From NCBI GenBank assembly GCA_009992505.1, contig JAACVI010000074.1, positions 1 to 33,062 of the forward strand: 33,062 nt of DNA, read 5' to 3'. This stretch comes from Myxococcales bacterium. Its GTDB lineage: Bacteria; Myxococcota_A; Polyangia; Polyangiales; Houyiibacteriaceae. The notes beneath the pieces were generated by a model that made no database searches, had not been told where the DNA came from, and worked only from the letters and a program-made list of their open reading frames with translations. Below, one piece after another: positions 7,067 to 20,400 of the stretch (positions are counted from its first letter, which is position 1; every line of letters starts with the position of its first letter). The position numbers were made by a program, and so were the translations under genes.

Positions 7067-8059
7067 ATGGAGATCGACGCATTGCTCGAGGGCGCGCGGG
7101 CTGGAACCTTCCCGCCCTGCGTCGTCTTGGTGGGAGACGAGAGCTTCCTCGCGAGCCGCGCCGTGGACGCTCTGCGCAAGGCCGTCGTCGGGGACGGGCC
7201 GCGGGGTTTCAACGAGGATCTGTTCGAAGGACGCGGCGCCAAGGCGGCGACCGTGGTGTCGGCGGCGCAGACGCTGCCGATGATGGCCAGCGCCCGGCTG
7301 GTGCTGCTGCGGCGCGTCGACCAGATGAGCCCGACGGATCAGGCGAGCATGGGCGAGTACTTGGCCTCCCCCTCCGAGTCGACCTGCCTCTTGATGACGG
7401 CGGAGAAGCTCGACGGCCGAGGCAAGCTGGCCAAGGCCGCCAAGAAGTCGAAGGCCTGGGTCGACGTGCGTCCCTTGAAGCATGGCGCCCTGCGCAGCTT
7501 CGCCCAGAACGAGGCGCGCGCTCGAGGCCACGCGCTCTTGGGCAACGGCGTGGAGGCGCTGCTGGACGCCCTAGGCGAAGATCTGGCCGCAATCGACGAC
7601 GCCCTCGAGCGCCTCTCGCTCTTCGTGGGTCCCGGCGTGGCCATCGACGCCGAGGCCGTGCATGCCTGTGTCACCCGCGTCCGCGCCGACTCGATCTGGC
7701 TGCTGGTGGACGCCGTGGGGCTGAAGGAGCGCGACAAGGCGCTCGAGGCGGCGAGCTCGCTCCTGGCCGACCGACAACCGCCGCTGCGCATCCTGGCCAT
7801 GTTGGCGCGGCAGCTGCGCATGGTCGCGCGCATGCGTCAGGCGCTGGCCGAGGGTCTCCGTGGCGCCGAAGCCGCCAAGCAGGCGGGCGCGCCGCCCTTC
7901 AAGGCCGGCGAGCTGGGCCGCGCCGCCCAACGCTTCCGCCTGGCGGATCTGGGCCGCGCCTTCGAGACGCTGGCGGAGGTCGACATGGCCCTTAAGGGCA
8001 GCCGCCGCCCGCCCGAGACGATCCTGCAAGAAGGCATCCTGCGCCTCACGCATCGCTAA
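7067..8059 (+). CDS. holA: DNA polymerase III subunit delta
   Basis: VVLVGDESFLASRAVDALRKA, FNEDLFEG, LPMMASARLVLLRRVDQM, and PPLRILAMLARQLRMVARMRQAL typical of HolA. Confidence 0.87.
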   Translation: MEIDALLEGARAGTFPPCVVLVGDESFLASRAVDALRKAVVGDGPRGFNEDLFEGRGAKAATVVSAAQTLPMMASARLVLLRRVDQMSPTDQASMGEYLASPSESTCLLMTAEKLDGRGKLAKAAKKSKAWVDVRPLKHGALRSFAQNEARARGHALLGNGVEALLDALGEDLAAIDDALERLSLFVGPGVAIDAEAVHACVTRVRADSIWLLVDAVGLKERDKALEAASSLLADRQPPLRILAMLARQLRMVARMRQALAEGLRGAEAAKQAGAPPFKAGELGRAAQRFRLADLGRAFETLAEVDMALKGSRRPPETILQEGILRLTHR

Positions 8060-8061
8060 CG

Positions 8062-8075
8062 AGGGCGAGCGCCCT
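8062..8075 (+). terminator. short stem-loop AGGGC-GAGC-GCCCT after holA
   Basis: 5-bp perfect stem with 4-nt loop, 3 nt after the holA stop; no clear T-run. Confidence 0.2.
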
Positions 8076-8238
8076 ACTCCGTCCAGGGCAACGTCGCTTC
8101 GACGGGTTCGGCGGCGTCGGCGCGCTGGGTCTGGAAATGCAGCGTCGTCGGCGTCGGAAAGTCGACCTGTCCGGGGTAGACGTAGTCCCAGTCCGCCCAG
8201 TCGACCTGCTGCGCGCAGCCCCAAGGCCGCGATGCGCT
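8074..8238 (-). pseudogene. orphan 3' coding-like segment without a start, in frame with rpsT and the repeat array
   Basis: 54 sense codons (SASRPWGCAQQVDWADWDYVYPGQVDFPTPTTLHFQTQRADAAEPVEATLPWTE*) with strong G/C third-position bias, bounded upstream by the TAG at 8239-8241; no ATG or GTG inside. Confidence 0.35.
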
Positions 8239-8364
8239 CTAGGCCTGTTCGATACGCTAGGCCTGTTCGAGACCCTAGACCGCTTCGAAACCCTAGACCG
8301 CTTCGAAACCCTAGACCGCTTCGAAACCCTAGGCCGCTTCGAAACCCTAGGCCTCTTCGAGACC
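8239..8364 (-). repeat. 18-bp tandem repeat, 7 units; unit nearest rpsT is its last six codons including the stop
   Basis: Direct reading at 8239, 8257, 8275, 8293, 8311, 8329 and 8347; minus-strand consensus GGTTTCGAAGCGGTCTAG; three central units identical. Confidence 0.97.
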
Positions 8365-8616
8365 ACTGACGCGCTGAGTGAGGCGCGAGATGTAGCGGGA
8401 TCCCGTCTTGCGATGGAAGATGCCCTTGCTCACGGCCATGTCGATGCGACGAATCGCAGCCGGCAATGCGGCCTTGGCGGTGGCCATGTCTCCCGAGTCG
8501 ATGGCGGCGCGCACGCGCTTCACCAGCGTCCGCACGTGGGAGCGGATGGTCTTGTTGCGCGCGGTGCGCTTGAAGGTCTGTCGGATCCGCTTCTTCGCGG
8601 ACGCGTGATTGGCCAC
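8347..8616 (-). CDS. rpsT: 30S ribosomal protein S20
   Basis: VANHASAKKRIRQTFKRTARNKTIRSHVRTLVKRVRAAI...RKTGSRYISRLTQRVSGLEEA; GTG start at 8616 preceded by GGAGAA. Confidence 0.95.
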   Translation of the reverse strand: MANHASAKKRIRQTFKRTARNKTIRSHVRTLVKRVRAAIDSGDMATAKAALPAAIRRIDMAVSKGIFHRKTGSRYISRLTQRVSGLEEA

Positions 8617-13861: not shown

Positions 13862-16800
13862 ATGAATCAAACGACGAAGTCCGTGGCGTGGATCGCCTTC
13901 CTCGGCGCCACCTTGACCGCCTGCGGTGGCGGTAGCCCAGCCGGCGAGGACGCCGGGGCGGACGCCGCACGCACGGACGCGAGCAGTCACACCGACGCCA
14001 GCTGTGCGTGCGAGATGGACGAGGACTGCGACGACGGCATCTTCTGCAACGGAGTCGAGGTCTGCGACCCGGGAGGAGCCGGCGCCGACTCCTGCGGCTG
14101 CGTCGCGGGCAGGAGCCCGTGCACCACCGCCGAGACCTGCCGCGAGGAGCGCCGGAGCTGCGGCGACGACTGCGTCGACACCGACGGAGACGGACACGCG
14201 CCCATCTTCTGCGGCGGGGACGACTGCGACGACACGGACCCGAACCGCTACCCGGGCAACCTCGAGCTCTGCGACGACGCGGCCCACGACGAAGACTGCG
14301 ACCCCACCACCTTCGGTGACCGGGACGCGGACATGGACGGCTACCCGGACGCCCAGTGCTGCAACCTGAACGCGCTCGGAGAGCGCCTCTGCGGCAGCGA
14401 CTGCAACGACGGCGCCGCCGAGATCCACCCCACCGTCGCCGACGGCTGCGACGGCATCGACAACGACTGCGACGGACGCATCGACGAGGATCCGACGCTC
14501 ACCTTCTACCGCGACGTCGACGGAGACGGCTTCGGCCTCACGACGGAGACGGTGACCGCCTGCTCCGCGCCACCCGGCTGGGCCGTCAGCCCCGGCGACT
14601 GCGACGACACGACTCGCGCGATGAACCCCTCCGCGCCTGACACCTGCAACGGCATCGACGACGACTGTGACGGCGCCGTCGATCCGGGCTGCGGCTGCGT
14701 CGACGGTGAAGAGCGCGACTGCGGACCGCCCGAGCCCGTGCTCGGCAGCTGCCGACGCGGGGTGCAGCGCTGCGTGGCGGGCGGCTGGGCCGCCTCCTGT
14801 CCCGGTGCCGTGATGCCGACGACGGAGGTGTGCAACGGCCTCGACGACGACTGCGATGGCACGCTGGACGACGGCGCGAGCATGGTCTGCGCCCTGGGCA
14901 GCTCCCACGCGGGGACGGGCGCTTTCGGCAGCTGCGCCGACGTGGCCGGGTACTACGCCTGCGCGGGCGACTGCCGCAGCGAGCTCTTCTTCGCCACGCC
15001 TCCACCGGAGAGCTGCAACGGCCTGGACGACGACTGTGACGGCGTGCCCGACGATCCCTTTGCCTGCCTGCAGAGCTCGACGGGCAACGCCTGCCTGACG
15101 AGCTGTGGCACGGTCGGCACCTTCGCCTGCGGCGCGGACTGTCTCCCCGGGCCGTGCACGGCGCCCGAGGTCTGCAACGGCTGCGACGACGACGGCGACG
15201 GAGCGGTCGACGAGGGTACACAGGTCGACTGCTGGGCCGACGCCGACGACGACGGCTTCGCCGCTCTGGGCGCGGACCAACGCGCCTTCTGCCGCGTGGC
15301 GGGACGTGACCCCGTGAGCGGATGCCCGGTGGGCTTCAGCGACCTGGATCCGGCGGGCGCCGCGGGCAGCGACTGCGACGACAGCGACGCGGGTCGGAAT
15401 CCCGGCCTGGCGGAGCGCTGCGATGGCGTCGACCAGGACTGCGACGGCGTGGTCGACGACGGAGCCTCCGCCGAGTGCGTGCGGCCTTCGACCTACGCCG
15501 CCTGCCTCGCCGGGCGGTGCGTGGTGGTGGGCTGCGGGCTGGGCGCCGACGATTGCGACGGTGACGCTTCCACGGGCTGCGAGACCGCGACGGCGGCCTC
15601 CGTGAGTGACTGCGGCTCCTGTGGCGTGCAATGCAGCGGAGGCATGGTCTGCTCCAGCGGCGGGTGCACGGATCACGTGGTGCAGATCAGCGCCGGAAGT
15701 CGTCAGACGTGCGGCTTGCGCGAGGGCGGAGAGCTGAGTTGCTGGGGGTACGGGCTTGGTGGCAGCCATCTCGTACCGGCGAACCAGCGCACGTATGGCG
15801 GAACTGTCGCCACCGAGGTCTCGATAGGCTGGGACCACCTCTGTATGCGTAAGAGCACGGGCGAGGTCTTGTGCGTGTTCGGCAACGGTCGAGGACAGCT
15901 CGGTAACGGGACCACGAGCCCCGGGGTTCGCGGGCGGGTCCTGGGTCTCGCGGACGCGGTGGAGGTCAGCGCCGGACACGAGGTCTCCTGCGCGCGCCGC
16001 GCCACCGGCGAGGTGGTCTGTTGGGGCGCGAACGATCGCGGACAGCTCGGCGACGGAACCACCACCGACAGCCTCGTCCCCGTAGCGGTCTCCGGGCTCA
16101 ACGACGCCGTCGAGATCGACGTCGGTGACGGGCATGCTTGCGCGCGCCGCGCCACGGGCCGGGTGGTCTGCTGGGGAGCGAATGACCGCGGTCAGCTCGG
16201 CGACGGAACCACCACCGACAGCTCCGTCCCCGTGTCCGTGCCGTGGCCGACGGACGGGGTCAGCATCGGAGCGTCGCTCGGCTTCAGCTGTGCGGTCAGC
16301 GCCAGCGGCCAGACTCGGTGCTGGGGCAAGAACGACGTGGGCCAGCTCGGCGACGGAACGACGAGCGATAGCCTCGTCCCCGTCTGGGTGAACGGCGCGA
16401 ACGCGCTCGAGATCACTCTGGGGCAGACTCACGCCTGCATCCGCGAAGACAGGGACTTCGTCTCCTGCTGGGGGGGCAACAACCGCGGTCAGCTGGGCGA
16501 TGGCACGACCGTCGACCGTCCGACCGCCGCTCGGGTTCCGGGCCTGTACCGAGTGCTCGAGATCGACGCTGGCGATACTCACACCTGCGCCCGGCGCCCG
16601 GGTGGTGTCGTCAGCTGCTGGGGCTTCAACCTCTACGGACAGCTCGGGGACGGATCAGAAACGAGCCGCCCTATCCCCACGCAGGTCGTGGGCATGGGCG
16701 AGGTGATCGACATGGGTGGAGAGGCCTTCCATTCCTGCGTACTCCACGCCACGGGCAACGCCGAATGTTGGGGCAACCCCGTGCACGGCGTGTTGGGCGA

Positions 16801-19875: not shown

Positions 19876-20400
19876 TCACTGTCGCGGCCGGAGCAGTCGG
19901 TACGTCATCGCCGCGACGCGATCCACGAGCGCGAGGGCGTCTGCGGTCGCATCGGCGGCGACGTAGCCCCAGCTGCGCGCGATGCGCTGACACGCGCGCG
20001 TCTCGTAGGCGGAGCCGAGCGCGGACTCGTGTCGAAGCCGCCGATGGCCTCCGTGGTGTCCGGCGGACTCGGCCAGATTGAGCGTCACGCTCTGCGCCGC
20101 TCGCCGCAGCTGGTCTGCGAGGGATCGATCGTGTTTCGCCACGCCTCGCAACAGCGGCGCGAGGTGATCGAGCATCTCGTGCGAGAGCTCCAGAGCGAGA
20201 AGGGGTTGGTTCGTTCGCACTGGAAGGCGAACTTCCAGCACGGACACCGACATGGACACCGACACGGACACCGACACGGACACCGACACGGACACCGACA
20301 CGGACACCGACACGGACACCGACACGGACACCGACACGGACACCGACACGGACGATGAGCTCTGCTTGCGATCGCACTTGTGACCGATCTTCAGGGACAA
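19876..20400 (-). CDS. four-helix-bundle protein (23S rRNA IVS-type family) with Ser-Val repeat N-terminus
   Basis: LALELSHEMLDHLAPLLRGVAKHDRSLADQLRRAAQSVTLNLAESAG...ALGSAYETRACQRIARSWGY matches the family pattern; the true start may lie within or downstream of the repeat. Confidence 0.75.
   Translation of the reverse strand: MSLKIGHKCDRKQSSSSVSVSVSVSVSVSVSVSVSVSVSVSVSVSVSVSMSVSVLEVRLPVRTNQPLLALELSHEMLDHLAPLLRGVAKHDRSLADQLRRAAQSVTLNLAESAGHHGGHRRLRHESALGSAYETRACQRIARSWGYVAADATADALALVDRVAAMTYRLLRPRQ
20241..20353. repeat. 12-bp microsatellite CGGACACCGACA, 9 full units plus a partial
   Basis: Direct reading; perfect except for one C-to-T at 20253. Confidence 0.98.

Follow-up and report, generated by a model that had tools for sequence, protein, structure and literature searches.

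A tandem array running through the rpsT stop codon of a Myxococcales bacterium, probably a minisatellite grown from the S20 tail

The window, which is the whole 33,062-nt stretch of Myxococcales DNA analyzed here, carries rpsT on its minus strand (8347 to 8616; Pfam PF01649, E 9e-29), with a GTG start at 8616, a TAG stop at 8347, and 89 codons for ribosomal protein S20. Facing it as a convergent neighbor is holA, which encodes the DNA polymerase III delta subunit (7067 to 8059, plus strand; Pfam PF21694 and PF06144), and the gap between the two genes is 287 nt. A tandem array begins inside the end of rpsT and extends into this gap. TRF places it at 8239 to 8364 with a period of 18, 7.0 copies, 91% matches, no indels, and a score of 168, and both the seven 18-bp units and their translations agree exactly with an earlier sequence-only reading. 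That reading left the strand unstated; we place the array on the minus strand, where its units run from 8364 to 8239. The first unit, GGTCTCGAAGAGGCCTAG (8347 to 8364), consists of the final five codons (the last 15 nt) of rpsT and the TAG stop itself. Units 2 to 7 (8239 to 8346, minus strand) follow 3′ of that stop, so that the series translates as GLEEA, GFEAA, GFEAV three times, GLEQA, and RIEQA, each closed by an in-frame TAG.

The differences among units are graded. Units 3 to 5 share one sequence, a single base separates unit 1 from unit 6, and divergence is greatest in the last unit. Variation is confined to columns 1, 4, 10, 11, and 14, all of which are first or second codon positions where each change alters an amino acid, which argues against conservation of a peptide. 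Of the motifs proposed earlier, only TCGAA and CTAG are shared by all units. The claim that every unit holds a CTAG palindrome thus stands, while the TTCGAA core proposed alongside it is not universal, since units 1 and 6 have CTCGAA and unit 7 has ATCGAA. A possible decayed eighth unit follows on the minus strand (8219 to 8238; GCGGCCTTGGG versus GCGGCCTAGGG), in which TAG would have become TTG and one base is missing, although the match is weak (p = 0.027 against shuffles).

Directly behind the array on the minus strand is a 54-codon frame (8074 to 8238) that is in phase with rpsT, lacks a start codon, and has coding-like composition (GC3 of 0.87, positive codon score). It is an orphan, with no match in Pfam and no credible relatives when 58 or 378 genomes were searched; two weak relatives were dropped because each lies in what looks like an incorrect frame or strand of some other gene. 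The frame includes the residues WGCAQQ, which slightly resemble the lipobox of small lipoproteins, and it may be the remnant of a small gene that lost its start. Two further repeats lie elsewhere in the window: a 12-bp repeat of 9.6 copies with 98% matches (20239 to 20353) within a minus-strand coding frame (19876 to 20400), and a 150-bp repeat of 2.6 copies and putative RCC1 type (15989 to 16383) within a 1287-codon gene.

The array is confined to one locus and one genome. When the entire draft genome was searched by pattern, the repeat unit appeared at rpsT and elsewhere only as scattered single matches with three mismatches, so the dispersal over many unrelated loci that would have marked it as a generic repeat is not seen. 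A two-unit pattern allowing at most two mismatches was absent from all 183 other genomes of the order (184 searched). Comparison of the array and its flanks with plasmids gave one chance-level 36-bp match, and comparison with phages gave none. Within the genus the comparison rests on a single genome (G001), in which S20 ends in RVAALS followed by TGA, the rpsT-holA gap is 96 nt, and the array is absent. A convergent rpsT-holA pair is also frequent in other relatives, where the interval is short (mostly <190 nt) and free of such an array, and several of them have a GC stem followed by a T-run after rpsT. A scan of S20 in named genomes placed the relatives around Sandaracinaceae, and no such array was seen in the S20 tails inspected from that scan. 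Unrelated tandem repeats do occur behind rpsT in two relatives, 22 bp in three copies in one (L018) and, in another Polyangia genome (L058), a 120-bp tandem duplication directly behind the gene (1.9 copies, 98%), which marks this region as prone to duplication.

With the rpsT array as the starting point, we surveyed tandem repeats (TRF score of at least 70) in contigs totaling 595 kb of the same genome, taking gene ends from a simple codon model. The sample held 68 arrays, 54 within genes and 14 intergenic. The period was divisible by three in 52 of the 54 within-gene arrays, as selection on reading frames would predict. Nine of the 14 intergenic arrays begin at −30 to +20 nt relative to a gene stop, against 2.63 expected, and only 1 of 1000 random noncoding placements gave a count as high; without the rpsT array the count is 8 of 13. 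An earlier version of the survey, before the codon model was retrained, gave 10 of 16 (2.55 expected, 0 of 1000), and one of its matches (L156, 1206 to 1436), which looked like a coding repeat, was lost after retraining. Six arrays span the stop. The five besides rpsT, each of which copies the stop or its surroundings, have periods of 26 bp (L150:2628-2680), 34 bp (L158:2097-2168), 16 bp (L158:4911-4946), 32 bp (L190:701-807), and 52 bp (L205:157-266), none a multiple of three. Two nearly perfect arrays that begin 16 to 19 nt past a gene stop are candidate variable loci (L130:11325-11433, 34 bp × 3.2; L138:4767-4845, 15 bp × 5.3). The same tendency, weaker than in this genome, appears in a member of the same family (G009; 5 of 10 stop-anchored, 1.46 expected, 9 of 1000, at score 50) and in a member of the same order (G044; 4 of 11, 1.35 expected, 37 of 1000), with at most one or two arrays spanning the stop, and the sample from the same-genus genome had too few arrays to be informative.

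An array in this position could serve the rpsT transcript: its repeats might form a long hairpin that takes the place of the usual terminator by ending or protecting the mRNA. The predicted fold of the array is strong (−53.4 kcal/mol, z of −3.25 against dinucleotide shuffles), and a canonical terminator pattern was not found on the strand of rpsT and the array, whereas several relatives have one of stem-and-T-run form there. However, 77 of 300 tandem arrays with permuted columns reached an equal or stronger fold, which suggests that the hairpin energy follows from the tandem arrangement as such. There is also no T-run after the array, and an Rfam search of the window gave no match above the gathering score. 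We found neither a fold stronger than a comparable tandem array would form nor a stem with a T-run, and the structured 3′ UTR suggested from the sequence gains no support beyond what any such array would give it. We consider this explanation unlikely.

S20 is a highly expressed protein, and selection might have kept the additional in-frame TAGs as a safeguard against ribosomes reading past the rpsT stop. The array does place six additional in-frame TAGs in a stretch of 42 codons, where the maximum among 379 confidently called genes in the sample is four extra stops. Yet a survey of bacterial genomes found a paucity of additional stops rather than an excess, no excess in highly expressed genes, and no selection for back-up stops (PMC6764699). 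The array is absent in all relatives, and the columns that vary among units change amino acids. Given five variable columns among 18, chance alone would leave TAG invariant in roughly a third of cases by our hand calculation. Since none of the other five stop-spanning arrays has a period divisible by three, the in-frame repetition at rpsT is probably a coincidence. Together with the ordinary use of TAG in this genome, these observations leave the fail-safe role, which had also been raised from the sequence, without support, and we regard it as quite improbable.

Still less probable is that the copy number was created by the assembler. The genome is a fragmented draft of 587 contigs, but the units differ in a graded way, unique sequence flanks the array on both sides, and at 126 bp the array should be short enough for one read or read pair. 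Finally, we give almost no credence to UAG being read as an amino acid, such that S20 would run through the array into the in-phase, coding-like 54-codon frame behind it: reassignment would entail UAG being unused as a terminator and RF1 being lost, but RF1 is present, TAG is the stop of 88 of 379 genes in the sample (23%) with coding signal falling after it as after TGA and TAA, a TAG in the normal place ends the S20 gene in at least six relatives, and no S20 relative has a tail that continues through such an array.

The array consists of head-to-tail units within the 10 to 60 bp or so of a minisatellite and stands well above chance, and its first unit looks native. The S20 proteins of relatives end in VNGLQS, VNALEG, or VAALS, and the first two tails make the GL(E) of unit 1 look like part of the original protein. 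This supports an origin of the array from the S20 tail and disfavors a foreign array joined onto the gene. Identical inner units between divergent outer ones typically mark an array that has grown from the inside, and their pattern suggests the same here. The first proposal from the sequence, growth out of the S20 tail, is thus supported in the form of tandem duplication by the native-looking unit 1, the restriction of the array to this genome, and its homogenized inner units. With a probability that we put at roughly four in five, the rpsT array is a minisatellite particular to this species that was seeded at the native 3′ end of rpsT, grew by slippage, and most likely has no dedicated function.

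We propose that a short tandem duplication took in the last rpsT codons and the stop. As the first copy would keep its stop, S20 would be unchanged or nearly so whatever the length of the duplication, and the event would be tolerated. Replication slippage or unequal recombination would then have expanded the array to seven units, presumably under neutrality, and the in-frame TAG in every unit would be a by-product of a period that happens to be a multiple of three. Duplications over a stop may be tolerated where others are not because the preceding protein is hardly altered at any length. Such tolerance would account for the arrays that span the stop, but not fully for those that start 9 to 19 nt after it, and something mutational or structural at gene ends may contribute as well. 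More tentatively, and on balance doubtfully, the intergenic minisatellites of this lineage could be placed non-randomly, seeded at stops by a process acting at gene ends, with rpsT as the clearest example; a change in copy number would then swap the last residues of S20 and leave its core untouched.

The rpsT array is of a kind already described in archaeal Borgs, here in a bacterial chromosome, and the Borg paper is the only direct precedent that we found when searching the literature for repeats across the stop codon of a bacterial gene (PMC9879509). Borg tandem repeats are also minisatellites of about 20 bp, some of them with a first unit that falls wholly or partly inside a gene end, and they follow the same period rule, divisible by three inside genes and mostly not between them; unlike the diverged, GC-rich units at rpsT, Borg units are perfect and A-rich (PMC9879509). 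Bacterial minisatellite or VNTR loci used for strain typing are likewise species-specific head-to-tail arrays with homogenized inner units. The rpsT array differs from them in that its first unit includes a stop codon and in that its copy number comes from one genome of the species. That it is a VNTR, as the sequence-only reading raised, is plausible. The tandem stop codons of yeast (PMC1088959), like those sought in the bacterial test above (PMC6764699), also place extra in-frame stops shortly past the primary stop, but the yeast stops are single conserved codons under selection, whereas those behind rpsT show no sign of being conserved and appear to have arisen incidentally as the repeat grew.

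Taken singly, the array matters little beyond showing that a repeat can run through the stop of a ribosomal protein gene without evident harm. If it is true that the intergenic minisatellites of these bacteria start at stops, gene ends would be a birthplace of new repeats and possibly of new C-terminal tails.
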